The notes: generated by a model from the letters alone, not told the origin. Counted from the first letter of the stretch, positions 3,293 through 23,975 are shown. The stretch: 64,000 nucleotides of DNA from an uncultured Pseudomonadota bacterium (GCA_913061235.1 CAJXTB010000016.1:62001-126000), one strand, 5' to 3'. Numbers and translations: made by a program.

Positions 3293-3464
3293 AAATACCC
3301 CCCCCACAGAGACGCAAACTTATATCAGTTGGAGCAGTTCTCCAACGATTGTTTGCGGGGTGTGGGGTAGTAGCCAACGCCTAGGCAAGACGCGGTGCAC
3401 TAGATGATCTGGCGAAAGACGGCGTCATCACTCCCCTGCAGAGCGATGACGGTCACTATCGACG

Positions 3465-4490
3465 CTACGCAGCCTTCGGCTTGGGTAGTGGCACCATTTC
3501 CTTGGCGCTCGGGTCCCACAACTTGAGCCGCAACGCTGCAATCATGCTGCTGGGACGCCAGTTCGTGCGAATCGGGTCTTGCAGCTCGGGAATTCCGTCC
3601 ATCGCTTCCGGAAGTCGGTAGAACGGGATGCGGTGGTTGAGATGGTGGACGTGGTGGTAGCCAATGTTTCCCGTAAAGTAGTGCAAGAAACCAGGCATAT
3701 CGAACATGGTCGAGCTTCTGAGTGCGGCGACGTCGTACTTCCAAGCGGTACGTGGCGCAAAGTAGATGCCCGGCGCATTGTGCTGCGCATAGAACAAGTA
3801 GCTACCCAGTGAATGGCTGACAATGAGCGGCAGGATGAGCGTGAACAGTGCACTCACCCAACCGAAGGTCAGACCCAGACCAATGAACAGTCCAAGGTGG
3901 ACGATGGGAGCCGCCAGGCTCTGCCAGTGGAGCTTCGGGTTCCGCATGAACGACTGCGCACACATCTGTCCAAGAAAGATGGTGAAGTAGCCGAACACCA
4001 TGGTGAACGGCGAACGCGCGAAACGGTAGGCCCGCTTGTCCTTCTCAGACATGCGACGCCACAAGCGCGTGGTGACAACCGGGTAGCTGCCGATGGATGT
4101 GCTCGGTAGGCGGCAGTTGTTCTTGTGGTGGTAGTCGTGAGATTCCTTCCAGATCGGTGCTGGTGACAAGATCAGGAAACCAAAGGCGTTCATAATCCAG
4201 TGAGCAGGACGCGACTTGGTGAACATGGCGCCATGTACGGTGTCATGGAAGATGATGAACGTGCGAATGTACATCAGACCCGCAAACACAACGGCGGGAA
4301 TCTTGGCCCACAAGGGAGCGAGCAAGCACACGCTCAGCAAAGCGCCAAGAATGGTCAAGGTCGACAGCAGCTCCCACCAAGAACGCGCTCGGTTCTCTTT
4401 GGTGTACGGCTTGGTCGCACGGACAAGTGCAGGCCCGGAACGCAACTCAATAGCGTCAGAAACTGCGGTTTCGGCGGGTGTGCTGGACAT
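3465..4490 (-). CDS. Membrane fatty acid desaturase
   Basis: A 341-residue integral membrane di-iron desaturase. The three histidine boxes are visible: HDTVHG at residues 82-87, HDYHH at 118-122 and HHVHH near the C-terminus, in the order and spacing of acyl-lipid (FAD2/DesA-like) desaturases. Hydrophobic segments lie between the boxes. The ATG at 4488-4490 is chosen over a GTG nine bases upstream because AGGTG sits six bases before it. The family inserts double bonds into acyl chains of membrane lipids using O2 and an electron donor; which position is oxidised cannot be read here. No ferredoxin or reductase gene adjoins it. It lies downstream of the MFS gene on the same strand with a 72-base gap. 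A role in adjusting membrane lipids fits the lipid-synthesis operon 2 kb away, but a functional link is inference. Confidence 0.9.
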   Translation of the reverse strand: MSSTPAETAVSDAIELRSGPALVRATKPYTKENRARSWWELLSTLTILGALLSVCLLAPLWAKIPAVVFAGLMYIRTFIIFHDTVHGAMFTKSRPAHWIMNAFGFLILSPAPIWKESHDYHHKNNCRLPSTSIGSYPVVTTRLWRRMSEKDKRAYRFARSPFTMVFGYFTIFLGQMCAQSFMRNPKLHWQSLAAPIVHLGLFIGLGLTFGWVSALFTLILPLIVSHSLGSYLFYAQHNAPGIYFAPRTAWKYDVAALRSSTMFDMPGFLHYFTGNIGYHHVHHLNHRIPFYRLPEAMDGIPELQDPIRTNWRPSSMIAALRLKLWDPSAKEMVPLPKPKAA

Positions 4491-4562
4491 CGGTGTCACC
4501 TGAGTTCAGATAAACGGGGGGGTTGATAACCTGCGACGGGCCGTTGTGAATCCCCCGCGTCG

Positions 4563-5708
4563 CTATGTGGCGCTTCGCTGCCGCCCCAATGCCAACAAAC
4601 CGACGGATGGTCCAAGGCAAAGCACCACAAGTGCGGTGGAAGTTGTGGCGAACTGTTGGGCTACCGTCACACTCACAACGGTCAGCGCGAAGCCAATGCT
4701 AGTGGTCATTGCAAGACCAGAACCGAGTAGTTCGGGAGGGGCTGACCGAGCGGTCAGCGTGGACAGCTGCGGGGAGTCCGCCGCTACGAACACCCCCCAA
4801 GCGCCAAGCCAAGCCAACCACATCGCCTGCGGAGCGTGCCACATCCACGGCGTGGCCATGCCACATAGCAGACCACCGAACAGGGCAATTCGTGCCACCC
4901 GAAGACTACTGATGCGCTGGGCAGCGAGTCCCCCAACAACACAGCCCACACTTCCTAGGGCAATGAACAGCCCCGCACCTAGGGAGACAGACGTGCCGCT
5001 AAATCGCGCCGCCACAATCAGCGGAGCCAGAGCCCACAGCGTGTACATCTCCCACATATGACCAAAGTACCCGAGAGCCGCACGTCGAAACCGCGCAATC
5101 TTCCACAGCTGTAGGAAGTCACCGGGTCGGAATGGACGCACCGAAACGGGCTTGGTCTCCGCCGGCAGCAGCGTCCACACCGCAACACCGCCAAGGACCG
5201 CCGCCCCGCTGGTCACGCCCAACACCACACTCGCTGAGACACCGTCGCCGAGCGCACGCAGCAGGTGACCCGACGCTGTCCCGAGCACGAGTGCCCCAAC
5301 AAGCCAGCCTAGAGCACTGCCTAGACGCTCCGGAATCAGGGTGGCCGCGAGCTTCATCCCGATGGGGTACACGCCGGCAAGAGCGAGTCCTACAAGCGCC
5401 CGTGACGCGAGCACCGTCATCCCACTGCCCGGTGCCAACAGCGGCAGGCCATTCGCGACCGCAACGCCCAGACACGCGAAGAGAAACAGCCAACGCGCCT
5501 GCACCCGGTCCGCCAGCCCAGTAGCCGCAATCAACAGAGTCCCAAGCACAAACCCAGCCTGCACCGCACTGGTCACGCCAGCCACCGTGACCGAATTATC
5601 GGCGATGAGCTGCGGAAGCACGGCGTTGGCAGCGAACCAAGGAGACGTGCCAGCGAACTGCGCTGCAACCAGGACAGCGAGGATGGGCATAGGGCGAGAC
5701 GTGGCCAT
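4563..5708 (-). CDS. MFS family transporter
   Basis: A 381-residue, strongly hydrophobic protein with about twelve predicted membrane spans and no signal peptide cleavage site. The charged loop between spans 2 and 3 (GLADRVQARW) and the central cytoplasmic loop before FRPGDFLQLW are typical of the major facilitator superfamily, which exchanges or expels small molecules using the proton gradient. The start at 5706-5708 is the most upstream reasonable ATG; its ribosome binding site (GAGG) is unusually close, and a second ATG at 5690 is possible. Nothing in the sequence indicates the substrate. The desaturase gene follows on the same strand. Confidence 0.8.
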   Translation of the reverse strand: MATSRPMPILAVLVAAQFAGTSPWFAANAVLPQLIADNSVTVAGVTSAVQAGFVLGTLLIAATGLADRVQARWLFLFACLGVAVANGLPLLAPGSGMTVLASRALVGLALAGVYPIGMKLAATLIPERLGSALGWLVGALVLGTASGHLLRALGDGVSASVVLGVTSGAAVLGGVAVWTLLPAETKPVSVRPFRPGDFLQLWKIARFRRAALGYFGHMWEMYTLWALAPLIVAARFSGTSVSLGAGLFIALGSVGCVVGGLAAQRISSLRVARIALFGGLLCGMATPWMWHAPQAMWLAWLGAWGVFVAADSPQLSTLTARSAPPELLGSGLAMTTSIGFALTVVSVTVAQQFATTSTALVVLCLGPSVGLLALGRQRSAT

Positions 5709-5828
5709 GCCTCAAGCTACAACGCCGCGGTACACACGGTTACTCAGTGCGGACCTTTGCCTCTATCTGTGCAGCGTCGTGCTCGACTGAATGCCCGCGG
5801 CGCGTGGATCTAGCGAAGTTCACCGCCG

Positions 5829-5909
5829 ATGTCTGTTGGAGCGCTGCACGCACAACGTGACGGCCCCGGAATGGGCACGTGTTTCACGCTGACTCTTCCG
5901 TGTCTCGAC
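5829..5909 (+). pseudogene. Possible remnant of a sensor histidine kinase C-terminus
   Basis: In the gap between the MFS gene and the next minus-strand gene, bases 5838-5900 read GALHAQRDGPGMGTCFTLTLP. This follows closely the end of the HATPase_c domain of histidine kinases (GG-x-[IVL]-x-[AV]-x-S-x-G-x-G-x-G-T-x-F-x-[LV]-x-LP), including the G3-type box. An in-frame TAG lies six codons before the ATG, and no other part of a kinase can be seen nearby. I read it as a decayed fragment of a lost gene rather than an active one. A chance match over 21 residues cannot be excluded. Confidence 0.4.
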
Positions 5910-5973
5910 CCGGAAGGTCTAGGCAAGAGCCACCGCGTCCGTGCATGCCCCCCACCTCAATCGCATCCACTCG

Positions 5974-6264
5974 CTACTGCCGGAGGCGGTTCGCTTTGGA
6001 CAACGCGGTCATCTCTCGGTCGGTCTTCACCCAAGCCAGAAGGGCCTGCGGGTCGTTCGCGTCGACCCATGGCGGCAAGGCCTGCGACTCACGCAGAGCC
6101 AATACAAGCTGCAGCTCTTCAACAGCGACCTCGCGCTCCCGTATCTTCAGCCAGCTGTTGGCGAGCCACGCCAATAATGGGGCGCAGACCACCAAGAACA
6201 CGGGCACTCCCAGCACTGTCGCTATGCCCGCGAATGTCGATAGAATAATGATTGCAACTTCCAA
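5974..6264 (-). CDS. Small membrane protein of unknown function
   Basis: The best start is a TTG at 6262-6264, because GGAGG lies six bases upstream; this gives 96 residues. The frame stays open for another 66 codons upstream, so a longer form cannot be excluded. The protein begins with a hydrophobic region of about 35 residues (roughly residues 3-40, with a Pro in the middle, so one long or two short membrane spans). A charged, probably helical cytoplasmic tail with Glu/Arg-rich sequence (KIREREVAVEEL) and a Trp-Val-Asp-Ala-Asn-Asp-Pro segment follows. I do not recognise the family. It is transcribed away from the lipid operon and shares the upstream region with it, so the palindrome at 6501 might also affect this gene. 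Confidence 0.55.
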   Translation of the reverse strand: MEVAIIILSTFAGIATVLGVPVFLVVCAPLLAWLANSWLKIREREVAVEELQLVLALRESQALPPWVDANDPQALLAWVKTDREMTALSKANRLRQ

Positions 6265-6500
6265 AGCACACCTCCGTATGGGGCGTACGTGAGTGGCCGG
6301 GTGGCTATTTCCGTCAGCAGGACCTTCAACAACGACGCTGCCCGATTCGACAGCCCCACTGACGGTCGCGGGCGACACGTTGACGCCCATCCGCATTGCG
6401 TCGTGGGGCAGCGCTGCAGCGCGAACGAACCCGATTGCGGCCCCCCTTCGCAGCGTCGCCAACCGATCTCCGTGAACTCCTCAGGCATTCCGCGACACTC

Positions 6501-6524
6501 ACTAGACTGACATGTCAGTCTAGT
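6501..6524. promoter_or_regulatory. 24-bp perfect palindrome, probable TetR-type operator
   Basis: The half-site ACTAGACTGACA is followed immediately by its exact reverse complement, giving a perfect 24-bp palindrome with no spacer. It ends 32 bases before the start codon of the first gene of the lipid operon. The arms (TAGAC...GTCTA) resemble operators of TetR-family repressors such as NemR. A CTGACA hexamer inside it and TATTCG 17 bases further on could be a -35/-10 pair, in which case a bound repressor would block RNA polymerase. No TetR gene is present in the window, so the regulator would be encoded elsewhere. The operator role is inferred from symmetry and position. Confidence 0.65.
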
Positions 6525-6556
6525 CAGGTTATTCGCGGCCCGAGATGGAGTTTAGT

Positions 6557-7204
6557 ATGCAACCAGCAGCGTTCTTCCGCGTTGAAGGCACCTTGCTTTC
6601 CAAGTCCAGCCTGATGGCAGCGGCATGGACGGCAGGCAATGGCCAGCAGATTCGTGGCCGTCTGGCCCGACTCGGAGCCGTTGCGTTGGCAGCTCCCCTA
6701 GCGTTGCGCTCCAAGGGCGCAGCAACACAGGCCAGCTGGTCGGCCCTGCGCGGAACCAGCGAAGACCGTCTGCGTGTACTCGGCGAAGAGTACTGGCACA
6801 GCGTGCTCAAGAAGAGCACCCTGCCCGTGGGTCTACGACTGCTCAAGCAAGCGCAAGATGCCGGTCAGCGCATCGTTCTCATCAGCGACCACCCGCACTG
6901 CATCGCCCAGCACATGACAGCCGCACTCGGTGCTCAATCGCTGCTGTGCAACCACCTGGAAGTCGTGGACGGCGAGACGACTGGAGCGCTGCTCAAGCCC
7001 ATCATCAGCGGTCCGCTCAGCGGCCAATGGACCCGTGACTGGGCCATCCAGCACGGAATCGACCTTCTCGCATCGGGCGGCTACGGCGCACGCGGAGACG
7101 ACGCGGTTCTGCTGTCCGCCGTCGGCCATCCGTGTGCCGTGCGACCCGACAATGCTCTTCGTCGCACAGCGACCGACCTCTCCTGGCCCGTGGTGGATGC
7201 CTAA
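6557..7204 (+). CDS. HAD-like protein with degenerate active site, first gene of lipid operon
   Basis: A 215-residue protein with the outline of HAD-IB (SerB-like) phosphatases. These have a start FFDxDGT, a Ser/Thr motif, a GxGK region, then a DxxxD region followed by VGHPxAVxPD. Here motif I reads FFRVEGT (Arg8 and Glu10 in place of both catalytic aspartates) and the motif III lysine seems to be replaced (SGQWTRDW). Motif IV keeps GDD, and the family ending VGHPCAVRPDNALRR is clear. Without the nucleophilic Asp it is unlikely to be a phosphatase; a structural or carrier role in the following pathway is more plausible. The ATG at 6557 is chosen because GGAG lies six bases before it; an ATG at 6545 is the alternative. 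The next gene starts directly after its TAA stop. Confidence 0.75.
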   Translation: MQPAAFFRVEGTLLSKSSLMAAAWTAGNGQQIRGRLARLGAVALAAPLALRSKGAATQASWSALRGTSEDRLRVLGEEYWHSVLKKSTLPVGLRLLKQAQDAGQRIVLISDHPHCIAQHMTAALGAQSLLCNHLEVVDGETTGALLKPIISGPLSGQWTRDWAIQHGIDLLASGGYGARGDDAVLLSAVGHPCAVRPDNALRRTATDLSWPVVDA

Positions 7205-8776
7205 ATGAAACTCGCAGACAACCCGCTCGACGTGCGCAAGACGCTCTCTGGCAAGCACATCCTGCTCACCGGCGTCACCGGCTTTCTCGGAAAAGTCTGG
7301 CTGTCCTGGCTGCTCACTGAGGTCCCCGAGATTGGACGGGTGACAGTCGTCATTCGACCCCGTCCCGCACAGACGCCCATTCAGCGATTCGCCCGCATTG
7401 CCGACACCAGCCCGTGCTTCCGTCCCCTGCGTGCTTCGCACCAGAAGGACTACGCCGACTTCCTGCGCGCCCGCGTGGATGTGGTCCGGGGAAACGTCGA
7501 AAAGCCCAATATGGGCATGGGTCCAGCGGTCGTCGAACGTCTCACCGGCCAAGTAGACGCCGTCATTCACTGCGCTGGCCTCACCGATTTTGAAGGTGTC
7601 CCCGGCAAGATGGTCGCCGTCAATACTTCCGGTGCGCTGCATGCCGCCCGGCTATCGGCTCGAATCGGCGCCAAGCACATCCACGTCAGCACTTGCTACG
7701 TTGCCGGCAACGTCAGCGGACACATGACCGAGACCCTCACAACGGGCATCTCCCCGAATGGCACCGTCCTAGACGTAGACGCAGAGCTGGCTGGCTTGGA
7801 CGCAGACACGGTCCTTCCACAGCTGACCGGACGGGAGCTGAAAGCCGAGCAGATTCGCGTTGCCGTCAAGCGCGCAGAGGCCCTTGGCTGGCCCAATGTC
7901 TACACCTACACCAAGGGGCTGGCAGAGCACCTGGTCATGGCTGAGCCCGGCAACAACGTCACTATCGTTCGGCCGGCCATCCTAGAGTGCGCCACTGACT
8001 ATCCCTTTGCCGGATGGAACGAAGGCATCAACACGTCAGGCCCACTGTCCTGGCTGATTGCCACCGCCTTCCGCCACCTTCCGGCGAACCCAGACTTCGT
8101 CTTCGACGTGGTGCCGATTGACGACGCCGCACGTGGACTGACCCTAGCGACCGTGGCCGCATTGGACGGAAACAGCCTAGGTGTCTATCAAATCGCGAGC
8201 TCCGACCACAACCCCATGACCTTCGGTCGGTGCATCGAGCTCAACGGTCTGGCCGTACGCAAGTACACGCGCATCCACGGCAGTGAGGGCTGGCAGGGCT
8301 TCTTGTTGCGCCACATGGACCCGGTCAGCGCCCCCGATGGCGGTCCCCTCTCGGTGCCTCGCGTTCGCCGCTTCGCTCGCTTCTTGAGCAAGGTTGCGCA
8401 CAACTTGGACGAAGACCCCATGCTCGGTCAGGCCGCACGCGCCGTCAAAGAACGCATGGACAGCGCCGAGCGCTCCCTGGGCCGTATCGAAGAGATGCTT
8501 CGCGTCTACACCCCGTTCATCCGGGACAATGACTACCGCTTCGCCACGGACAACCTGCGCGAGCTGACCGCGTCCCTACCCGACAGCGACCGCGAGCGCT
8601 TCGGCTATGACCTGTCGGACCTCGACTGGTGCTCGTACTGGGTAGACGTGGAATACCCGGGCCTAATGCACTGGAGCATTCCCCTGCTTCACGGCAACAA
8701 AGCGCCTGAAGACCCGGCAAGTGAGCCAGCCTTCACCATGGACCAGACCACAGCCGTCAAGGCGGTGAGCCTGTGA
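7205..8776 (+). CDS. NAD(P)-dependent fatty acyl / thioester reductase-like SDR
   Basis: A 523-residue extended short-chain dehydrogenase of the male-sterility / NAD_binding_4 type, related to fatty acyl-CoA reductases and the reductase domains of Lys2 and NRPS enzymes. The nucleotide-binding motif TGVTGFLGK is at residues 22-30, followed by a VIHCAG segment, a Ser-Thr pair (HVSTCYVAG) and the catalytic Y233-x3-K237. About 200 residues follow the Rossmann part, as in fatty acyl reductases. Such enzymes reduce an acyl-CoA or acyl-carrier thioester to the aldehyde or alcohol with NADPH. The presence of an acyl carrier protein and two AMP ligases in the same operon supports an acyl thioester substrate; the product is unknown. 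It begins directly at the stop of the HAD-like gene and overlaps the next gene by 4 bases. Confidence 0.85.
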   Translation: MKLADNPLDVRKTLSGKHILLTGVTGFLGKVWLSWLLTEVPEIGRVTVVIRPRPAQTPIQRFARIADTSPCFRPLRASHQKDYADFLRARVDVVRGNVEKPNMGMGPAVVERLTGQVDAVIHCAGLTDFEGVPGKMVAVNTSGALHAARLSARIGAKHIHVSTCYVAGNVSGHMTETLTTGISPNGTVLDVDAELAGLDADTVLPQLTGRELKAEQIRVAVKRAEALGWPNVYTYTKGLAEHLVMAEPGNNVTIVRPAILECATDYPFAGWNEGINTSGPLSWLIATAFRHLPANPDFVFDVVPIDDAARGLTLATVAALDGNSLGVYQIASSDHNPMTFGRCIELNGLAVRKYTRIHGSEGWQGFLLRHMDPVSAPDGGPLSVPRVRRFARFLSKVAHNLDEDPMLGQAARAVKERMDSAERSLGRIEEMLRVYTPFIRDNDYRFATDNLRELTASLPDSDRERFGYDLSDLDWCSYWVDVEYPGLMHWSIPLLHGNKAPEDPASEPAFTMDQTTAVKAVSL

Positions 8777-9903
8777 GCATTCTCATTACAGGTGCCAACG
8801 GGTACCTCGGTTCCTACGTGATCAATGAGCTGCTCGGACGCACGCGTCAGAAGCTGATTCTCATGGTTCGCGGCGCAGACCAAGAAGAACGCGTTGCCAA
8901 GCTGTGGAAGGGCATGCAGCTACACATGAACGCCGCGGAGTTCCAGGACGCTCTCAACCGCATGGAGCTGGTCCACGGAGACCTTCATGCCAAAGACCTA
9001 GGCTGGGACGACGCCACACGAAAGAGCCTGCTTCGCCGTGTGACCTCGGTCATTCATGCAGCGGCCTCGCTCAACCGCAAGTCCGCCAAGGCCTGCTTCA
9101 ACACCAACCTACGCGGCGGAATGTCGGTGTTGATGTTCGCTCGGGAGCTGGCCAATAAGGGCAAACTAAAGCGCTATTCCTTCGTATCTACCGTTGCCGT
9201 AGCCGGTCATCGGCAAGACGAAGACATTGAAGAGGACGCCGCTATCGAGTGGACCCGCAGCGACTACGACCCCTACGCCAGAACGAAGAAGTTCGGTGAG
9301 CACATGGTGCGTGAAGTGCTCGCTGGCGAGTCCTTCGTCATCTTCCGCCCGGGCATCTTGCTTGGCGACGGCGCCCATGAACGCACCACCCAGTTCGATA
9401 TGGTGCGCGCCTTGATTGGACTGGCCGACATGCCGATTGTCCCGCTGCGCCCCAACGACCGCATCGACATTGTCAACACCGCCTACGCCGGCGAGGCCAT
9501 CGCCCACATTCACCTGATGAAAGAGCCCAAGTACGACTGCTACCACCTCTCCAGCGGCGCCAAGTCGCCTACGGCCAAGGAAATCTTGGACTCGATGGAG
9601 CCCGTGGGCGTCACCGCGCGACTGCTGCCCAAGCTTGAGAGCCCGTTTAGCTGGGTCTTCCGCGCGATGAACCGAGCCCCACGAGGGTCAACCGTCGCTG
9701 GCGTTGGCGCGTTGATGAAGGTGTTCTGGCCCTACATCCGCTACAACACGGTGTTTCTCAATGACCGTGTAGTCGAAGAGCTCGGCCATGAACCAGTGCC
9801 GTTCGTTGAGTACTCAGCCGACCTGTACCGCTGGGTGAAGGCCAACCGCTACCGCTACCCGTTCACAGAGCTGACCTTGACCGACGAAGAGGGCGCAGCA
9901 TGA
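8773..9903 (+). CDS. Second male-sterility-type SDR oxidoreductase
   Basis: A 376-residue extended SDR. It starts at a GTG in the GTGA overlap with the previous gene. TGANGYLGS (residues 6-14) binds the nucleotide, VIHAAASL and SFVSTVAVAG are the central SDR motifs, and Y168-ARTK172 gives the catalytic Tyr and Lys. The sequence GDLHAKDLG and the Arg-Pro-Gly-Ile-Leu-Leu-Gly-Asp segment are as in thioester reductase and Lys2-type proteins. It differs clearly from the first reductase, so the two probably act on different intermediates, for instance acyl thioester and aldehyde or sugar, or form a pair. It overlaps the next gene by the sequence ATGA. Confidence 0.8.
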   Translation: MSILITGANGYLGSYVINELLGRTRQKLILMVRGADQEERVAKLWKGMQLHMNAAEFQDALNRMELVHGDLHAKDLGWDDATRKSLLRRVTSVIHAAASLNRKSAKACFNTNLRGGMSVLMFARELANKGKLKRYSFVSTVAVAGHRQDEDIEEDAAIEWTRSDYDPYARTKKFGEHMVREVLAGESFVIFRPGILLGDGAHERTTQFDMVRALIGLADMPIVPLRPNDRIDIVNTAYAGEAIAHIHLMKEPKYDCYHLSSGAKSPTAKEILDSMEPVGVTARLLPKLESPFSWVFRAMNRAPRGSTVAGVGALMKVFWPYIRYNTVFLNDRVVEELGHEPVPFVEYSADLYRWVKANRYRYPFTELTLTDEEGAA

Positions 9904-11396
9904 AGCGCAACCTTCAGGGCTTTCTCCGTAAGGTCGCCAACAAAGCGGTCGACCAGGTCAAAGAGATCGACACCGACAAGGGCTTGATGCTGGCCATGGC
10001 CGCCGGCATCGAGACCGCGCGGGCGCGTCAAAAGTGGGACCCCTCACCGACTTGGTCACCTGGCGAGCCACTTCGTCTTCTCTTGGCTGGGTACACCGGG
10101 TCGCGAAACACAGGCGCAGACGTTCGCGTAGAAGCCATGATTCGCCAGTTCCGCTTTCTGTTCGGAGACGACAACCTAGAGCTGTCCATCCTGACGAACG
10201 ACCCCCAGCTCACCCGCGGCTACTTCCGCACCGTTGAGCAGCTCGAGCTTCCGAAAATCTTTCCCAAGTTCATGGTCCAGACCATCCGCGAACAGCACGG
10301 TGTCATTGCCTGCGAAGGGTCGATGTTCAAGTCCAAGTTCGCCAATGCCCTGTCCACCATGATGGTCGGCGCGTTGGGAACAGCGGCGGCGGAAGACAAG
10401 CTGTCCATTGCCTACGGCGGCGAAGCGGGCGGCATGGACTCTGCCCTCGAGTCGTTGGTCTCCCGCTACTGCAAAGATGCGCAGGTCATCGCGCGCAATC
10501 AAAACTCGCTGGAAGTGCTTGGCGACCTGGGCATTACCGCAGAGCTCGGCACCGACACCGCGTGGACCTTTGAGCCCGCTCCGCCATCCGTAGGCGAAGC
10601 CATCCTCAAAGAACACGGCTGGAACGGTGTCAGCGATGTGCTGGTCGTCTGTCCCATCAATGCGTTCTGGTGGCCCGTCCGCCCCGACCTTCAGAAAGGC
10701 GCACTGCACGCGCTCACCGGTGCCCACGAACGCGACCACTACGCCTCTGTCTACTTCCACCACGGTGGCCCCGAGGTCGACCGCAAGCAAGCCCAGTACA
10801 TCGACGGACTGGCAGACGGCGCCGCTGCCTTCGCTGCCGGAAGAGACGTCTTCGTGGCCGCTGTGGGTATGGAACAGCTCGACAGAAGCGCCTGTCAGGC
10901 CTTGGTTGACCGTCTAGGAGGCGGCGCCGTCATCGTCTCCGACACCTACGACCAGTACGAGATGGTCAGCGTCATTCGCCTCGCCAAGTGGATGGTGTCG
11001 TCGCGCTACCACGCCCTCGTCACCTCCATGCCAGGCGGTGTGCTGTCCGTTGGCGTGACCATGGACGAGCGCATTCCCAACCTCATGGCAGACCGTGGAC
11101 AGCCGGAACTCGCACTCCGAGTAGACGACCCGAACCTCGCTGATGCCGTCACCCAGGCACTCAGACACGTAGACAGCCACGCCGCAGAGATACGCCTAGG
11201 CATTGAGCGCACCACCGTGGACTGCATTGAGACCATGGGCTGGATGGGTGCTCGCTTGGTCCAGATGGTCCGCGCGGCCCACCCCGAGTTCCCCTTCCGT
11301 GATGGCTTGGGCGACACCGAAAAGCCCTGGGCACACCTACCTCCCCTCTCCCCCGACCTGGCAGCCCTTGTGGACCGCCACCGGAAGACCGCATGA
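9900..11396 (+). CDS. Polysaccharide pyruvyl transferase family protein
   Basis: A 498-residue protein of the polysaccharide pyruvyl transferase family (CsaB-like fold). After about 50 residues of N-terminal extension, the typical LLLAGYTGSRNTGADVR motif marks the first half. Near the C-terminus SRYHALVTSMPGGVLSVGV, followed by DERIPNLMADRG, is the most conserved signature. Known members transfer pyruvate from phosphoenolpyruvate to sugars, but many are uncharacterised. In an operon with acyl carrier protein, acyl ligases and reductases, it may add pyruvate or another group to a lipid head group; this is inference. It is translationally coupled on both sides by ATGA overlaps. Confidence 0.8.
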   Translation: MKRNLQGFLRKVANKAVDQVKEIDTDKGLMLAMAAGIETARARQKWDPSPTWSPGEPLRLLLAGYTGSRNTGADVRVEAMIRQFRFLFGDDNLELSILTNDPQLTRGYFRTVEQLELPKIFPKFMVQTIREQHGVIACEGSMFKSKFANALSTMMVGALGTAAAEDKLSIAYGGEAGGMDSALESLVSRYCKDAQVIARNQNSLEVLGDLGITAELGTDTAWTFEPAPPSVGEAILKEHGWNGVSDVLVVCPINAFWWPVRPDLQKGALHALTGAHERDHYASVYFHHGGPEVDRKQAQYIDGLADGAAAFAAGRDVFVAAVGMEQLDRSACQALVDRLGGGAVIVSDTYDQYEMVSVIRLAKWMVSSRYHALVTSMPGGVLSVGVTMDERIPNLMADRGQPELALRVDDPNLADAVTQALRHVDSHAAEIRLGIERTTVDCIETMGWMGARLVQMVRAAHPEFPFRDGLGDTEKPWAHLPPLSPDLAALVDRHRKTA

Positions 11397-13024
11397 GCTT
11401 CATCGAGACCCTGTTTTCCAACCTGCACGCCAACCCAGAAGTCCCGTTCATTCGTGAGACCCACGGCACGGACATCCGTGACAACAATGGCTCTGGAATG
11501 GCTGCGAACATCGGGCGAATCCGTCATTCCCTGCGGGAAAAGGGCGTGAAAGCAGGCTCCCGTGTCGTGCTTGTGGCGCCAAATAGCGCACTCTGGGTCG
11601 CCACCGATCTGGCCATTCTCGCGGAAGGCGCCATCTCGGTTCCCATGTACGCCCGGCAAGACGCCAAAGAGCTCGTAGCCATGATGCGCGACTGCAAACC
11701 ACGTCGCGTCATCGTCGCCACACAGGCCCTCAAGACCGCCATCAAGGCCGAGTGGGCCCGCGCGCCACTCATGACATTTGACGAGGTTCTGGACACACAA
11801 GACATCGTCACTGACCCGCCCCAGCCGCGCTCGGACGAGGACGTCGCCACCATCATCTACACCTCGGGCACAAGCGGCGAGCCGAAGGGCGTCATGCTCA
11901 CCGTCGGCAACATCGACCACATGCTGCCCGTCACGAGAGACCATCTCGACACCATGATGGGTCCGCGAGAAGGCGACGACCGCGTCTTCCACTACCTGCC
12001 CTTCTGCTTTGCCGGAAGTCGGGTCGTTCTGTGGACCTGCTTGTTCCGCAGCAACCCGTTGTTTGTCAGCACCGACCTCGACAACCTGTCCACTGAGATG
12101 GGCGTGGCCAAGCCGAACTACTTCCTCAATGTGCCGGTTCTTCTTGAGCGAATCAAGAACGCGGTTGAAGAGGGTGTGCGCAAGAAGCCCAAGATGGTCC
12201 AGCGCCTGTACGACAGCGGCAAGAAGGCTTTTTCCAAGATTCAAGCAGGCGAAGACGGCGCCATTGACCGGCTCAAGTACGCCCTGGCCAAGCGCGTAGT
12301 CTACGAGGCGATTCGCACGAAGATTGGCCCGAACCTGCGCTGCCTCATCTGCGGCTCAGCCCCCCTTGGCGAAGACACCCAGCACTGGTTCATGATGCTG
12401 GGCATCCCCGTCTACCAAGTCTACGGACTGACCGAGACCACCGCGATTGCGACCATGGACCGACCACCGGAGACGACCGTACCGGGCTGGGTCGGCCTTC
12501 CTATTCCCGGTGTTGAGACCATGATCACCGACGAAGGCGAGCTTCTACTCAAGGGTCCGAACATCTTCTCCGGCTACTGGGGCAAGAAGGACATCACCGA
12601 GACCGCGTTCGTCGACGGCTGGTTCCGCACGGGCGACCAGGTCGAGCTGGACGACGACGGCCGCATTCGCGTGATTGGACGCGTCCGCAACCTGCTGGTC
12701 CCAAGCAGCGGCCACAACGTAGCGCCCGAGCCAATTGAGCAGCGCATGGTCGAGACCATTGAAGGCGCCGAGCATGTCGTCGTCATTGGCCACGGCAAGC
12801 CGTACTTGACGGCCATCATCACTGGAAACACGGATGCGTCCACGCTTCAAGCAAGCATCGATGCCGTCAATAGCGAGCTTCCTCACTATCGACGCGTTCG
12901 CAAGTTTCACCACAGCGAAGAGCTGTTGACGATTGAGAACGGGCTGCTGACGGCGACGAGCAAGCTCAAGCGAAGCGCGATTACGGTCCACTTTGCAGAT
13001 GCGATTGACGGGATGTACGCGTGA
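11393..13024 (+). CDS. AMP-dependent acyl-CoA synthetase / ligase
   Basis: A 543-residue adenylate-forming enzyme. The ATP-binding loop YTSGTSGEPKG is at residues 156-166, followed by YGLTET and GWFRTGD. The C-terminal lysine that completes adenylation is in TSKLKR. The long insertion with GVRKKPKM and the FAGSRV segment is typical of long-chain fatty acyl-CoA synthetases (FadD15/FAA type). It should activate a fatty acid to the acyl-AMP and then to a CoA or carrier thioester. It overlaps the genes before and after it by 4 bases (ATGA and GTGA). The operon has a second, different ligase, so this one may supply the CoA-bound and the other the carrier-bound acyl group. Confidence 0.9.
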   Translation: MSFIETLFSNLHANPEVPFIRETHGTDIRDNNGSGMAANIGRIRHSLREKGVKAGSRVVLVAPNSALWVATDLAILAEGAISVPMYARQDAKELVAMMRDCKPRRVIVATQALKTAIKAEWARAPLMTFDEVLDTQDIVTDPPQPRSDEDVATIIYTSGTSGEPKGVMLTVGNIDHMLPVTRDHLDTMMGPREGDDRVFHYLPFCFAGSRVVLWTCLFRSNPLFVSTDLDNLSTEMGVAKPNYFLNVPVLLERIKNAVEEGVRKKPKMVQRLYDSGKKAFSKIQAGEDGAIDRLKYALAKRVVYEAIRTKIGPNLRCLICGSAPLGEDTQHWFMMLGIPVYQVYGLTETTAIATMDRPPETTVPGWVGLPIPGVETMITDEGELLLKGPNIFSGYWGKKDITETAFVDGWFRTGDQVELDDDGRIRVIGRVRNLLVPSSGHNVAPEPIEQRMVETIEGAEHVVVIGHGKPYLTAIITGNTDASTLQASIDAVNSELPHYRRVRKFHHSEELLTIENGLLTATSKLKRSAITVHFADAIDGMYA

Positions 13025-13908
13025 CGGCCATTTCCGCAGAGTTTTCGGGCGAGGCGCTGTCGTGGGACATGCACGACGACATCCTAGAAGTCCGCCTTCA
13101 CCGCGAGCCCTGCAACGAGATTGGCACCGCCGCGCTCGACGAGCTGGACCGCTTAGCCAAGCTGCTTCACGACACCACAGCACGCGCCTGCATCTTGTAT
13201 TCAGACCGCGAACGTGGGTTTTGTGCGGGTGCGGACCTCAAGGAGCTGTACGACGGGCTTGTTGAGAGAGCCGAGAGCTCCCGAACGCGAAAAGCGCTGC
13301 GCAAGATTGCCGGACCAGAGCTAGGTGACCGTGCAGCACGACGCGTTGGTGCCCCCATTGTTCGCCGCCAAGTGCGTCAGTTCATCGACCGCATCCACCA
13401 CGTCTTCACCCGCATCGACACCGCGCCCATTCCCGTCATTGGCATGGTTCACGGTGTCGTCTTCGGCGGTGGGTTCGAGCTGATGCTCCTGTGCGACATC
13501 GTGGTTGCCGAGCAGAGCACACGCTTCGCCTTCCCCGAGCTTCGCCTAGGTCTCGTTCCAGGATTCGGTGGCTTGCCGCGCCTGTCGCGAGACGTCGGAA
13601 ACGCCGTCATTCGCGACCTCTTGCTCACTGGGCGCACGCTAGGAGCCAAGCGCGCCTATGACGTCGGACTGGTCAGCCAAGTGGTCCCTCGTGGCAAGGG
13701 TCTCAAGATTGCTCGCAAGGTCGCCGCCCAGACCGCCAAGTTCGACCCGCATGTGGTTGCCATGGCCAAGCCCTTCGCAAAGCCCGTGCCGAGAGCCCAG
13801 CTCGAACGCGAAAAAGACCTGTTCTGCCGCATGGTCACCGACCCCGTCGTCCTCAAAGCCCTTGAGCGCTTTGTGAACAGCGACGACGCCCGCCCCTACT
13901 TGCCCTAG
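13021..13908 (+). CDS. Enoyl-CoA hydratase/isomerase (crotonase) family protein
   Basis: A 295-residue crotonase-fold protein starting from a GTG that overlaps the ligase stop. GFCAGADLKEL forms the first half of the CoA-binding and oxyanion site. GVVFGGGFELMLLCDI and FPELRLGLVPGFGG hold the two glutamates that act in enoyl-CoA hydratases (equivalents of rat Glu144 and Glu164), so hydratase activity is plausible. An insertion of about 60 residues rich in Arg lies between the two halves (ERAESSRTRKALRK), longer than in the classic enzymes. In this operon it probably handles a 2-enoyl or 3-hydroxy acyl thioester. It ends 12 bases before the acyl carrier protein. Confidence 0.85.
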   Translation: MTAISAEFSGEALSWDMHDDILEVRLHREPCNEIGTAALDELDRLAKLLHDTTARACILYSDRERGFCAGADLKELYDGLVERAESSRTRKALRKIAGPELGDRAARRVGAPIVRRQVRQFIDRIHHVFTRIDTAPIPVIGMVHGVVFGGGFELMLLCDIVVAEQSTRFAFPELRLGLVPGFGGLPRLSRDVGNAVIRDLLLTGRTLGAKRAYDVGLVSQVVPRGKGLKIARKVAAQTAKFDPHVVAMAKPFAKPVPRAQLEREKDLFCRMVTDPVVLKALERFVNSDDARPYLP

Positions 13909-13920
13909 CAGGAAGCCTGA

Positions 13921-14157
13921 ATGTCCGACCCCATCCTCGACCGTCTCCTACAGCTCGCCTCAAAACGCTTTGGCGTTGACGTCAGCGCTCTGAACCCAGA
14001 CGACGACATCTTTGATGCCCTGTCCATCGACAGTCTGCAGGCGCTGGAGCTTGTGACCGACCTTGAGGGTGCCTTCGGCGTGGAAGTCCCTGACTACGAG
14101 CTTCAGGACGCGCGCACCTTCACAGACATTGCCGATGTCGTGCGAGACCGCGTGTGA
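13921..14157 (+). CDS. Acyl carrier protein
   Basis: A 78-residue acidic, helical protein with the phosphopantetheine attachment motif IDSLQALEL; Ser38 would carry the prosthetic group. The three preceding acidic residues (PDDDIF) and the conserved hydrophobic pattern agree with type II acyl carrier proteins. AGGAAG lies ahead of the ATG. It lies between a crotonase and an AMP ligase and overlaps the latter by 4 bases, so it is almost certainly a dedicated carrier of this pathway rather than the housekeeping fatty acid synthase ACP. No phosphopantetheinyl transferase is in the window. Confidence 0.92.
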   Translation: MSDPILDRLLQLASKRFGVDVSALNPDDDIFDALSIDSLQALELVTDLEGAFGVEVPDYELQDARTFTDIADVVRDRV

Positions 14158-15839
14158 TTCACCCCGACCCCTACGACCACCTCGGCGACCTGCTGGCTGA
14201 CGCACTCGTCCAGTTCAAGCGTGAGACCGCACTGGTCGAGCTGAACCGTGAGCGCATCAGCGAGACCCTCACCTACACGGACGTCAAGCAGCAGACGACG
14301 GCCCTCACCCACCGCATGGCGGAGGCCGGTATTGGCCCCGGAGACCGCGTCGCCATCATCATGAGCAACCAAGCGCGCTGGCTCATGACAGCGTGTGCCG
14401 TGTTCTTCCGCGGCGCTGTTCTGGTTCCCTTAGACTACAAGCTGAGCGCTGACGAACAAGCCACGTTGCTCCAGCACAGTCAGCCAACCCTTCTCGTGAC
14501 CGAGTGGGGATTTCTCAAGCGCTTCAAGACCCGTCCAGCCATGCCGGCTTGGGTCGTTGACGTTCCCAAGAGCGCCGACCTGGGTGATGCGGAACGGTGG
14601 GACGACCTTCCCACGGATGCGCCGCCTGTCGTCGTGCAGTCCCGTAGTCGCGAAGACGTGGCGACCATCGTGTACTCGTCAGGAACCGGCGGCGAGCCCA
14701 AAGGCTGTATGCTGCCGCATCGTGCGTATCTGTCGCAGCTCGGCGCGCTGCTCGGCGAGTTCACCATGGACCGTGGCGACCGCTACTTCTCCATCCTGCC
14801 AACCAACCACGCCATCGACTTCATGGTCGGGTTTGTCGGCCCATTCGTGTGCGGCGCGACCGTTGTTCACCAGCGCAGTCTGCGCCCCGAGTTCCTGCGC
14901 AGCACGCTCAAGACGCAGCAGATCACCCACATGGCCGTGGTTCCCATTCTGCTAGACGCCTTCAAGCGCAGCATCGATGACAAGCTCGATGCCCTGTCCC
15001 CATGGCGACGCACAGCGTTCAACGCGCTGGTCTCCACCAACAAGCGACTCACCCAGAAGCGGCCTAATCACGCCGTCTCAGCGAAGTTGCTCAAGCCCAT
15101 TCACGACGCCTTCGGCGGCACCCTCAAGCTGTTGTTCGCCGGCGGCGCGTTCGTGGACCCCGGCAAAGTCGGGTTCTTCTACGACTTGGGCCTGCCCGTT
15201 GTTGTTGGCTACGGCCTCACTGAAGCGTGCACCGTACTCACGGTCAATCGACTAGAACCCTTCCGTTCGGACAGTGTCGGACGGGCAGTGGACGGCGTTC
15301 AGCTACGTATTGCCAACGCGAACGCAGACGGTATCGGCGAAGTCCAAGCCAAGGGCCCAACGCTGATGCTCGGGTACTTGAACGACGATGAGCAGACCGC
15401 AGCCGCGTTCACGGAAGACGGCTGGCTGCGCACCGGAGATCTGGGCCGGTTTGACGCCAGCTTCCACCTGCATTTGCTAGGTCGTTCCAAGAACATGATT
15501 GTGACGGCCGGCGGAAAGAACGTGTACCCGGAAGACGTCGAAGCGTTGCTCGAAGACGTCCCCGCGGAAGAGTTGTGTGTGGTTGCCGCCAACTACGTCT
15601 GGCCCAAGCAGACGATGACCGACGAGCAGCTCATTGCCGTCATTCGCACCGACAAAGCCAGCGACACCCTCGCGGCTCTACGCTCGCAGAATCGCCGCCT
15701 ACCCGAACACAAGCGCATCAGCGGTGTTCTGTTGTGGGACGACGAGTTCCCGCGCACCGCATCGATGAAGCTGAAGCGCCCGGTTCTTGCATCTGCGATT
15801 CGCGACACCACAACCGCTGACGCTGTCTCCGCGCTGTAG
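14154..15839 (+). CDS. AMP-dependent acyl ligase, second in the operon
   Basis: A 561-residue adenylate-forming enzyme starting from a GTG overlapping the ACP stop. Motifs: YSSGTGGEPKG from residue 174, YGLTEA, GWLRTGDLG, and the C-terminal FPRTASMKLKR carrying the adenylation lysine. It has an N-terminal portion like fatty acyl-AMP ligases and lacks any fused carrier domain, and the free ACP directly before it is the obvious acceptor. I infer that it loads the ACP with an acyl group. It is the last gene of the operon; the next gene converges on it and starts its stop codon one base after this one ends. Confidence 0.88.
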   Translation: MIHPDPYDHLGDLLADALVQFKRETALVELNRERISETLTYTDVKQQTTALTHRMAEAGIGPGDRVAIIMSNQARWLMTACAVFFRGAVLVPLDYKLSADEQATLLQHSQPTLLVTEWGFLKRFKTRPAMPAWVVDVPKSADLGDAERWDDLPTDAPPVVVQSRSREDVATIVYSSGTGGEPKGCMLPHRAYLSQLGALLGEFTMDRGDRYFSILPTNHAIDFMVGFVGPFVCGATVVHQRSLRPEFLRSTLKTQQITHMAVVPILLDAFKRSIDDKLDALSPWRRTAFNALVSTNKRLTQKRPNHAVSAKLLKPIHDAFGGTLKLLFAGGAFVDPGKVGFFYDLGLPVVVGYGLTEACTVLTVNRLEPFRSDSVGRAVDGVQLRIANANADGIGEVQAKGPTLMLGYLNDDEQTAAAFTEDGWLRTGDLGRFDASFHLHLLGRSKNMIVTAGGKNVYPEDVEALLEDVPAEELCVVAANYVWPKQTMTDEQLIAVIRTDKASDTLAALRSQNRRLPEHKRISGVLLWDDEFPRTASMKLKRPVLASAIRDTTTADAVSAL

Positions 15840-16820: not shown

Positions 16821-18218
16821 TTAGCGCAAGTAGATCGCGTAGTCGTAGGCAATGCCGTTCGATGCCGCCCAGTTTGCCTGCGAGCAGCTCGTATTTTCCG
16901 CTGTCGGGTTCATGTTGTACTGCGAGTCTGTCCCGAACGTGCCGGTGTTGTGGCTGCCGCCGTAGGTGTCGAACCACCCGCCTTGTGCCTCGGAGGTGGT
17001 GCGAACGGTCTGGCCATTGCAGGCGTGACCAGCGACGGAACCCGAGCAGCAGTAGTTCATGTCCGCCCAGTTTCCGAGACCGCCCCCGTTGTTGTTGGAC
17101 GGCGCGGCCTCATTGGAGCCAATACGGTTTCCGTCCGGAGAGCCCCCTGTGTCCGTGACGCATGTGCCGTTCACACAGTGGTTGGCGTACAGGACGGTAG
17201 TGGTGCGAACCAAGAACTCGGCAGACGACAGTCCGGCGACGGTGGCGCTCAAGACCGACTCGCCGAGCACGGTGTTGTCAGCGCCCTGTATGACCGACAA
17301 GAGCGTGTTCGTGTTGGGCCGCCTCCAGCGTCGGGAGCCGAGCTCGACGCCCTGCTCATGCACCGCAATGCGAAGCTCTGTAGCGCCGGGCAAGGCCGAG
17401 TAGGCTGACGTCTTGAGGTCCCCGTCGAAGGGAAAGTCGTCGACCGTGCCGCGTGGAGAGGCGTTGGTCCACAGGCCATTGCCCCACCACATGACATGCC
17501 CGTCGCTTGTGTCCAGATTCAAGGCCAGGGTCCAGCCTCCACCTTCGCTCTCCATGTCACAGTAGACGGGAAACGCTGCCCCGGGTCCCTGTGCATCAGG
17601 GTCTATTCGGTAGGCGCCGCTGCCGGTGGAGCCCGAGTATAGGCGGCCTGGGGCGTTCGGCCGGAGGTACGTCTCGCAGGCTGTCGCAACGCTTCCATCC
17701 GCCCACGTTCGACCCGATGCCGTGTTGATGATGCTAGAGGTGCCGCCCATGGTGAGCGGCTGCCACACGTCGCCGGCACACACCCGCACCGCACCATCCC
17801 GGTAGATGAGACCCCCCTCAGTCTCCGTGGTGCACTGCTCATCCTCCGCAGCACCCAGGAGGAGGATGCCCCCCGTGCGCGGCACAACGTTTGAGACCGG
17901 CTGGCGGCTACCTAGCGACAGCCCCTCCACCTCGAAGCCGATGTACAGCTGTGGCGCGTCGAAGAAGCGGTGATCGAGCGTGCCACTCGCGCCAAGAAGC
18001 ACAGAGAAGTACCCGTCTTCCACGGGAACGGCATCGAACGTCTCCTCGTGGCACACCTCCCCACCGGTCGGTTGGGCGTTGGGACACAGACGCGCCGTAA
18101 GACTGGTGGTGCCAGACACCGCAGCCCCCGCAGCATCCAAGAGTCGTCCTTGCTGAGCCAGCTGTACGGGAGCGGCGACAGCCACCTGCCCGGCGATAAG
18201 CAACGCGATGAGCCCCAT
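16821..18218 (-). CDS. Secreted protein with fibrinogen-like C-terminal domain
   Basis: A 465-residue exported protein with a signal peptide ending near AVAAPVQLA. GGAGG lies five bases before the ATG. The first part (QGRLLDAAGAAVSG, then about 80 residues of beta-strands ending in YIGFEVEGLSLGSRQPV) is a module common at the N-terminus of secreted bacterial proteins and shared with the gene at 19762-20538. The second half starts at PVYCDMESEGGGWTLALN, the hallmark of fibrinogen-related domains. Many Gly, Asn and paired Cys follow (NYCCSG, CVNGTCV), and it ends in YDYAIYLR. Such domains bind carbohydrate or other ligands. A role in surface recognition is inference. Confidence 0.8.
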   Translation of the reverse strand: MGLIALLIAGQVAVAAPVQLAQQGRLLDAAGAAVSGTTSLTARLCPNAQPTGGEVCHEETFDAVPVEDGYFSVLLGASGTLDHRFFDAPQLYIGFEVEGLSLGSRQPVSNVVPRTGGILLLGAAEDEQCTTETEGGLIYRDGAVRVCAGDVWQPLTMGGTSSIINTASGRTWADGSVATACETYLRPNAPGRLYSGSTGSGAYRIDPDAQGPGAAFPVYCDMESEGGGWTLALNLDTSDGHVMWWGNGLWTNASPRGTVDDFPFDGDLKTSAYSALPGATELRIAVHEQGVELGSRRWRRPNTNTLLSVIQGADNTVLGESVLSATVAGLSSAEFLVRTTTVLYANHCVNGTCVTDTGGSPDGNRIGSNEAAPSNNNGGGLGNWADMNYCCSGSVAGHACNGQTVRTTSEAQGGWFDTYGGSHNTGTFGTDSQYNMNPTAENTSCSQANWAASNGIAYDYAIYLR

Positions 18219-22256: not shown

Positions 22257-22320
22257 AGCACCTCCGTGCGTGCTCTAGCCCGCTGCGAATGGGATACGAC
22301 GCCATCCATTGGGAGAAGGT

Positions 22321-23211
22321 TTGCGTACGCTGTTTGTAGTCAATCCAGCCGCGGGCGGCGGACGGTGTGGACGTCAGATCCCGCGCGTCATCGCACGCTT
22401 ACAGGCCGAGGGTCTCACGTGCGAGACCGCCGAGACCAACGGCCCTGGCCACGCCACCGACCTTGTCCGCGCCGCTCGAGCGAACGGACTGCATCGCTTC
22501 GTCATTGTGGGCGGCGACGGCACAGGGTTCGAGGTGCTGAACGGGCTGTTCGACACTGCGACAGACCCCACGCCGACCCTAGGCTACCTGCCTCTCGGCA
22601 CGGGCAACTCGTTCATCCGCGACCTCGGCATCACTGACGAAGACAGCGCTGTCTCCGCACTGCTCCGCAACACGCCCCAGTCGGTCGATGTATTGAAGGC
22701 GACCACCACAGACGGTGCGTTCTACAGCATCAACCTAATCAGTGCCGGATTCACTGCGGATGCGGGCGAGCTGATGAACCGGCGGTTCAAGTCACTCGGT
22801 GCTCTGGGCTACGTCGCCGGAGTCGTGGGCCGCCTCGCAACACTGTCTGCACCCAGCCTGCCGATTGCTCTGGACGGAGGCCCGATGGACGCACGTCCGG
22901 CCACCCTTCTGTCGTTCTGCAACAGCCGCTGTACCGGCGGCACCATGCAGATGGCCCCAGACGCCCGGCTGTCGGATGGTCTAGTCGACATCATTCGCGT
23001 CGGACAGATGAGCCGAACGCGCCTACTCACAGCCTTTCCACGCATTTTTCGCGGGACTCACATCACCATGCCCGAGGTGGATTGTACGACGGCCAAGCAG
23101 ATAGCCATCGACATTGGACATGCCGTGGACTGGATGGTCGACGGTGAGATTCTCCGCCGAGAACTCACACAGATTGAGGTCCTTGCTGGCCATGTGCAGG
23201 TACTGGCATGA
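22321..23211 (+). CDS. Diacylglycerol/lipid kinase family protein
   Basis: A 296-residue cytosolic lipid kinase of the DAGK/YegS type. FVVNPAAGGGRCG at the N-terminus and FVIVGGDGTGFEVLNGL are the nucleotide-binding elements, followed by LGYLPLGTGNSFIRDLG, which carries the catalytic loop. The start is a TTG; 22321 is preferred since the family begins with the strand RTLFVVNPAAG and GGAGAAGG lies ahead; a TTG at 22309 is the alternative. The family phosphorylates diacylglycerol, ceramide or other lipids with ATP. It overlaps the acyltransferase gene by the sequence ATGA, so the two lipid enzymes form an operon. Confidence 0.85.
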   Translation: MRTLFVVNPAAGGGRCGRQIPRVIARLQAEGLTCETAETNGPGHATDLVRAARANGLHRFVIVGGDGTGFEVLNGLFDTATDPTPTLGYLPLGTGNSFIRDLGITDEDSAVSALLRNTPQSVDVLKATTTDGAFYSINLISAGFTADAGELMNRRFKSLGALGYVAGVVGRLATLSAPSLPIALDGGPMDARPATLLSFCNSRCTGGTMQMAPDARLSDGLVDIIRVGQMSRTRLLTAFPRIFRGTHITMPEVDCTTAKQIAIDIGHAVDWMVDGEILRRELTQIEVLAGHVQVLA

Positions 23212-23975
23212 CTCCGCCAAATCGACGCTGGTGGGCCACGCCTCTTGCCATCTTCTTGTGGTGGATTGGGGCCTTGTGGATGGTGCCCATGATGCTCAGC
23301 ATGATGGTGCTGAGCGCTGTGTTGGGTGCGCGCCGCATTGAGCCCATCTCACGTCTGTATTGTCGCGGGCAGATCTGGCTCACCGGCTCCCGCTACAAAG
23401 CCGTCGTCCACCCAGACGTAGACCTGGCAACGAGCTTTCTGTTCGCCCAGAACCACACAAACATCTTCGACCACGTGGTCCTGTACCCAGCAACACCGCA
23501 CTTCAAGCAGGGACTCGAGCTGGCCGAGCACTTCAAGATTCCAGTCTACGGCTGGTTCATGAAGGCCCGCGGCACCATTCCGGTGAAGAAAGGCTCAGCT
23601 GGCCAGACGCCGGAAATCTTGGCCCATATGCGCTCCGAGATAGCGAAGAACGGCAGTATCCTGGCTTTTCCCGAAGGCCACCGCACGTTGGACGGCTGTA
23701 TTCGGCCACTGCGAAAGGGCGTCTTCTTCATTGCCCGAGACCTCGGCCTACCCGTCGTCCCCGTCACTGTGTGCGGCATGTGGGCCGTTCAGCGCAAAGG
23801 CGACTGGCGTATTCATCCAGGTTGGACCGTCACAGTGTACTGCGACGAACCCATTCCTACCGAAGGTCTAGAAGATGACGACATCCCTGCCCTCGCGGCC
23901 AAGGTGCAAGCTGTGATGGAAGACCGCGTGAATGCGTGGGCCGCTGAACACGGGCTCCCGCTTCACAGCAGCTAG
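23208..23975 (+). CDS. 1-acyl-sn-glycerol-3-phosphate acyltransferase family (PlsC)
   Basis: A 255-residue membrane-associated acyltransferase. Two hydrophobic stretches form the N-terminus (residues about 12-38). The catalytic HX4D motif is H83-TNIF-D88 in QNHTNIFD, and FPEGHRT is the glycerol-phosphate-binding motif. It transfers an acyl chain to lysophosphatidic acid or a similar acceptor. It is translationally coupled to the lipid kinase before it; the pair could first phosphorylate a lipid and then acylate it. Its stop TAG overlaps the stop of the convergent methyltransferase in the sequence CTAG. Confidence 0.88.
   Translation: MTPPNRRWWATPLAIFLWWIGALWMVPMMLSMMVLSAVLGARRIEPISRLYCRGQIWLTGSRYKAVVHPDVDLATSFLFAQNHTNIFDHVVLYPATPHFKQGLELAEHFKIPVYGWFMKARGTIPVKKGSAGQTPEILAHMRSEIAKNGSILAFPEGHRTLDGCIRPLRKGVFFIARDLGLPVVPVTVCGMWAVQRKGDWRIHPGWTVTVYCDEPIPTEGLEDDDIPALAAKVQAVMEDRVNAWAAEHGLPLHSS

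Follow-up and report, generated by a model that had tools for sequence, protein, structure and literature searches.

The closest described system to the locus considered here is the elb operon (MIBiG BGC0000871), which is needed for ether lipids in M. xanthus and encodes ElbA (SDR), ElbB (HAD), ElbC, ElbD (FAR, ACS, ACP and acyltransferase) and ElbE (SDR), ElbC being listed there as a protein of unknown function (PMC9131029). Some soil Acidobacteriota make climate-proxy ether lipids without ElbD (PMC10087280). Two further groups of enzymes bear on individual genes of the locus: the ketal-pyruvyltransferases CsaB and Pvg1p (TIGR03609, PF04230), for which R148, H308 and K328 of CsaB are critical for PEP, R306 is predicted to bind it and a K328R variant stays active (PMC10435577), and the terminal thioester reductases of NRPS and PKS systems, such as the MxaA R domain, together with carboxylic acid reductases.

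Within the 64,000-nucleotide stretch of DNA analysed here (the window), the plus strand carries between positions 6545 and 15839 eight intact ORFs packed with 4-base overlaps or 0-12-base gaps, which we assigned to gene families by Pfam and NCBIfam profiles. The features of the locus and its partner genes are as follows.

6501-6524, unstranded: very likely TetR-type operator ACTAGACTGACATGTCAGTCTAGT, a perfect 24-bp palindrome with conserved core ACTGACNNGTCAGT and concordance with TetR
6545-7204, plus strand: HAD, HAD-IB-like pseudo-phosphatase and ElbB paralogue (PF12710), FRVEG replacing DVDGT
7205-8776, plus strand: FAR1, fatty acyl reductase, homologue of the ElbD N-terminal domain (PF07993 and PF03015, NAD_binding_4 and Sterile)
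8773-9903, plus strand: SDR2, SDR of thioester-reductase (R-domain) type (PF07993/TIGR01746, NAD_binding_4)
9900-11396, plus strand: PPT, CsaB-like protein of the pyruvyltransferase family with GT-B fold (PF04230/TIGR03609, PS_pyruv_trans)
11393-13024, plus strand: LIG1, AMP-forming ligase of long-chain acyl-CoA-ligase type (PF00501 and PF23562)
13021-13908, plus strand: ECH, crotonase (PF00378), catalytic E153 and E173 present by alignment
13921-14157, plus strand: ACP (PF00550, PP-binding), DSL phosphopantetheine serine by alignment
14154-15839, plus strand: LIG2, ElbD-ACS-like ligase, probable acyl-ACP ligase (PF00501)
22309-23211, plus strand: lipid kinase of YegS/DAGK type (PF00781/PF19279), in relatives the next gene after LIG2
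23208-23975, plus strand: PlsC-type acyltransferase, conserved partner (PF01553), HX4D motif intact

The HAD stop at 7204 is followed directly by the FAR start at 7205 (spacing 0), 4-base overlaps join FAR to SDR2, SDR2 to PPT, PPT to LIG1 and LIG1 to ECH, a 12-base gap separates the end of ECH (13908) from the start of ACP (13921), and ACP and LIG2 again overlap by 4 bases, all as described in the initial annotation of eight coupled same-strand genes. Matching the starts found in relatives, the HAD gene probably begins at 6557 rather than 6545. Both FAR1 and SDR2 carry the nucleotide-binding motif (TGxxGFLG in FAR1) and YxxxK, and the active-site residues are present in LIG1 and LIG2. The assigned families fit the earlier description of an acyl-lipid operon supplying carrier, activation, reduction and transferase functions, and the absence of a ketosynthase holds for the eight genes. 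Its two Lys2-type reductases reduce to one, SDR2 being of the Lys2/NRPS thioester-reductase type while FAR1 is a FAR-family reductase; its possible head-group transferase, PPT, is present, but the lipid kinase and the PlsC acyltransferase also belong to the gene set.

Relatives of this locus are widespread and orderly. Of the 379 Myxococcota genomes sampled, 50 hold a strong PPT relative (51 listed, one match marginal), whose gene is flanked in almost every case by FAR-SDR2 and LIG1/ECH/ACP/LIG2, and a scan of named genomes returned 291 PPT relatives, the best 80 of which include Nannocystis, Paraliomyxa, Sandaracinus-type bins and many Acidobacteriota. Gene order is identical in Acidobacteriota (operon in 13 of 396 genomes) and other named-genome relatives, making the operon colinear across two phyla; LIG1 is absent from some lineages, and complete loci show little variation in which of the remaining genes they hold. 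The comparison of gene order across Myxococcota and related genomes that had been proposed as a check thus finds it conserved, and a scattered set of genes with separate roles is ruled out by an order kept in dozens of genomes. Among 79 loci, LIG2 is followed by a YegS/DAGK lipid kinase in 47, by a PlsC-type acyltransferase in 36 and by a TetR regulator in 25, many of these loci ending early at contig ends, and a CDP-alcohol phosphatidyltransferase lies nearby on the opposite strand in 8 acidobacterial loci. The window has its kinase and acyltransferase genes (22309-23975) 6.5 kb downstream, on the same strand as the operon; with ortholog scores of 390 bits (127 for the genome's runner-up) and 338 bits (128), respectively, they are by this measure clear orthologs and part of the operon gene set. 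A search of plasmids for a PPT homologue found none. Inserts between operon genes in some relatives comprised only low-value ORFs, with the exception of one acidobacterial operon (L152:14228-15250), where an ORF between ECH and ACP resembles, by eye, a FabH-type ketosynthase. One genome of the same phylum as locus L134 holds a second, more distant PPT paralogue (G444:C148:28487-29851, E 4.6e-122), and two operon-bearing records (L125, L136) are titled as Klebsiella pneumoniae metagenome bins, names that are almost surely wrong.

For comparison with elb we used operons identified by gene content in the sampled genomes, the M. xanthus operon itself being taken only from its published description (PMC9131029). 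Both systems bring FAR, acyl ligase, ACP, HAD-IB, SDR and acyltransferase activities together in one locus. The FAR profile of the operon family matches ElbD along the full length of the FAR (446-510 bits, E about 1e-134 to 1e-153); ElbD, first put forward as a broad functional precedent, is therefore relevant but closer than an analogy, namely a true homologue. In the window genome, ElbD scores 448 bits with the FAR1 profile, some 400 bits more than the next non-operon protein at about 40. The LIG2 profile scores 339-394 bits against the ElbD ACS (in the window genome, 340 bits for ElbD versus 207 for the next ligase), the HAD profile of the operon family matches ElbB, and a tree joins LIG2 to the ElbD ACS as its sister, the support being moderate (79). 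On these profile scores FAR1 and HAD share descent with parts of ElbD and ElbB and, with the tree added, LIG2 probably does so with the ElbD ACS; we do not retain LIG2 as a clear sister of the latter, as support is only 79 and a larger, 56-row tree did not settle its placement. LIG1 groups with the long-chain acyl-CoA ligases of the window genome. PlsC as a detached ElbD acyltransferase domain is not supported, with 46-69 bits and a score below other PlsC proteins of the genome, and PPT was rejected as the equivalent of ElbC, a Lar_N protein that the PPT profile does not match. ElbC (L162:7750-9354 and L163:8455-10134) belongs to the Lar_N (lactate racemase N-terminal) family, and a profile search of the eight window genes for a Lar_N match returned none.

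The differences from elb are equally marked. Where elb has a single multidomain ElbD chain, the window operon has separate genes; ElbB keeps DxDGT whereas the window HAD is catalytically dead; ElbC is missing; PlsC comes from another PlsC branch and is paired with a lipid kinase; and a thioester reductase, a crotonase, a second ligase, a pyruvyltransferase and TetR are added. Because it is without a fused ElbD, an active ElbB and ElbC, we do not file the operon as an elb member: judged from its sequence, it is an unbundled, paralogous relative of elb. As to whether homologous operons already have an assigned product, which the initial annotation had named as a refuting finding, the related elb has one, but the split architecture has none in the literature searched, namely the open literature outside subscription journals, where we found no description of this gene set.

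The two architectures are distributed in a nearly complementary fashion. Across the 379 Myxococcota genomes the split type occurs in 51, the fused ElbD type in 111 and both in 1, with an expected overlap of about 15 (Fisher p 1.2e-7, uncorrected for kinship). Split types were recognized by reading frames mostly of 500-900 aa with E below 1e-155 in nearly all (FAR profile) and ElbD types by long frames, mostly of 1400 aa or more, and both were hand-counted from score, frame length and the list of PPT genomes, with 13 weak matches left out. Exclusion is also seen within the window's own family (16 genomes with the split type, one with ElbD only) and within a second family, f32 (7 split, 4 ElbD). 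This near mutual exclusion supports related functions for the split and fused systems, and it is partly confounded by phylogeny. The sole sampled genome with both is that of the window, where a canonical elb operon is found elsewhere (G000 contig C2:210000-229900, locus L162) and consists of the following genes.

9358-10044, minus strand: ElbB
7750-9354, minus strand: ElbC
3152-7765, minus strand: ElbD
2204-3148, minus strand: SDR

The ElbD of this genome is a 1538-aa chain encoded away from the operon. Unless its bin is mixed (contamination 2%), the window genome shows that the two systems can coexist and that here neither simply replaces the other.

The HAD protein matches the profile of HAD-IB phosphatases (ElbB, SerB; TIGR01490) along most of its length, but differs from them in the replacement of both the catalytic Asp nucleophile and the acid Asp. 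Among the 58 distinct Myxococcota members, Arg (once Lys) takes the place of the nucleophile and Glu that of the second Asp without exception, and the HADs of Acidobacteriota carry the equivalent loss (RVEG); nine canonical ElbB proteins keep DVDGT, with the other HAD motifs intact. In five Acidobacteriota loci (L130, L135, L141, L151 and L156, near 6.2-8.8 kb) a shortened pseudo-HAD and FAR share a single fused frame some 800 aa long. Given the loss of the catalytic Asp in all members and this HAD-FAR fusion, the simplest inference is that the pseudo-HAD serves as a non-catalytic partner of the reductase.

PPT shares with CsaB and Pvg1p the GT-B fold (predicted model, pLDDT 93) and the Arg, Arg, His and Arg/Lys positions for PEP: when PPT is profile-aligned to a CsaB-family protein, its R199, R369, H371 and R391 fall on CsaB R148, R306, H308 and K328, and none of these four PPT residues varies among 25 sequences. 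With these positions conserved and K328R active in CsaB, PPT probably uses PEP. It differs from the characterized enzymes by an N-terminal extension, by a score of 75.7 bits that lies below the curated CsaB cut-off of 213.1, and by its place in a lipid operon rather than a cell-wall polysaccharide locus. Its best structural matches (Z about 22) are UDP-GlcNAc 2-epimerases and glycosyltransferases; the best 50 structural matches listed are filled by such and other GT-B proteins, Pvg1p and CsaB being absent from among them, and a sequence search of the PDB with the PPT profile gave no match. SDR2 matches R domains, the nearest solved structure to its profile being the MxaA R domain (E 1e-32), and plausibly acts on a carrier-bound thioester; unlike the R domains of NRPS and PKS systems it is free-standing, and it scores below the TIGR01746 cut-off.

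Taken together, these features suggest that the operon probably makes an unusual membrane lipid. We favour, with modest confidence, a TetR-repressed, elb-like variant operon whose predicted product would be an aldehyde- or alcohol-derived, probably ether-type and possibly pyruvylated lipid. LIG2 would load a long-chain fatty acid onto the operon ACP and LIG1 would form a CoA thioester, after which FAR1 with its pseudo-HAD subunit, and SDR2, may reduce the thioester to aldehyde or alcohol, as their families imply. ECH, with both catalytic residues in place, could set or remove a 3-hydroxyl on a chain yet to be assigned; the linked lipid kinase and PlsC might build a glycerol or alkyl-lipid backbone, or something similar, in an order that is putative; and PPT, in keeping with its PEP residues, would add a pyruvyl group from PEP to a putative acceptor. 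The product would be expected to replace the alkyl and alkenyl ether lipids made by ElbD. This elb-variant reading draws on the colinear order in two phyla, the homology of FAR, LIG2 and HAD to ElbD and ElbB, the near mutual exclusion with ElbD and the HAD-FAR fusion in Acidobacteriota, as well as on the proximity of SDR2 to NRPS R domains, the PEP residues of PPT, the linkage of kinase and PlsC, the concordance of TetR and operator, and the gene roles described for M. xanthus elb (PMC9131029). Against it count the distance of PlsC from the ElbD acyltransferase domain and the support of only 79 for LIG2, and, since ECH, PPT and SDR2 are without an elb counterpart, the product could differ in kind. 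An extended version, which we advance only tentatively, would be that of a new membrane-lipid class bearing a pyruvyl ketal, in which ACP-bound acyl groups are reduced to aldehyde or alcohol by a split, elb-related pathway, common to Myxococcota and Acidobacteriota, that has repeatedly replaced ElbD in the former, the dead HAD serving as a reductase subunit.

The strongest competitor, although we consider it unlikely, is that an ether-lipid operon has merely been split, its product being the same as that of M. xanthus elb and the extra genes accessory. The matching core parts and the complementary distribution would both follow from such a history, which fits poorly with the missing ElbC, the catalytically dead ElbB-like protein and a window genome that holds both systems; moreover PPT, SDR2 and ECH are retained in nearly all complete members and so do not behave as accessory genes. 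Less probable still is a product unlike that of elb, a long-chain 1,3-diol derived from a 3-hydroxyacyl thioester by ECH and the reductases, to which PPT would add a cyclic pyruvyl ketal and whose kinase and PlsC would act on the ketal-diol or on a glycerol carrier. The 4,6-ketals of hexoses are 1,3-diol ketals, and a ketal placed on hexose O4 and O6 could likewise form on a 1,3-diol; a crotonase with both Glu residues, two reductases, conserved PEP residues in PPT and an operon-linked kinase and PlsC all suit this scheme, whereas no operon enzyme supplies a 2-enoyl or 3-keto precursor and the exclusion with ElbD suggests an elb-like product. A fatty-acid catabolic or scavenging operon, its reductases storing carbon as wax alcohols, is very improbable: fatty acid degradation often features TetR control and AMP ligases with a crotonase, a habit that the two acyl ligases, crotonase and TetR here fit, but the conserved genes include no acyl-CoA dehydrogenase, hydroxyacyl dehydrogenase, thiolase or wax synthase and do include ACP, lipid kinase, PlsC and PPT.

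The TetR-repressed, elb-like variant would be controlled through the operator at 6501-6524, for which phylogenetic footprinting provides support. Of 58 distinct operons, 38 carry the core ACTGACNNGTCAGT in the 200 bp preceding the HAD gene, where about 0.0004 would be expected per region as estimated from the remainder of that DNA, and this conservation is far beyond chance. Among the 37 distinct operons with enough flanking DNA, the site is present in all 29 with a linked TetR gene and absent from all 8 without one (p 2.6e-8, uncorrected for kinship). This concordance and the position of the core upstream of HAD make the palindrome very likely a TetR operator. A search of the 7.18-Mb genome found no second exact copy of the 14-bp core, and the single palindromic operator of the initial annotation is borne out as a 24-bp palindrome unique in the genome, conserved upstream of HAD and concordant with TetR. 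The best TetR match in the window genome lies on another contig (C1:11502-12059, 3e-29, 36% identity), and the window retains the site with its own TetR gene relocated or replaced, the protein on that other contig being the probable regulator.

As every step of the split system is a separate, expressible protein, its predicted pathway to ether- or aldehyde-derived lipids becomes testable stepwise. Its occurrence in Acidobacteriota may bear on how members of that phylum without ElbD form their proxy ether lipids, and a pyruvylated lipid, if true, would represent new head-group chemistry. Elsewhere in the window, all on the minus strand, a fatty acid desaturase (3465-4499) and an MFS transporter (4563-5708) lie just upstream of the operon, a 943-aa protein (476-3307) combines hexapeptide repeats with a Big_7 domain, and a 465-aa protein (16821-18218) matches a fibrinogen C-terminal domain over a short stretch.
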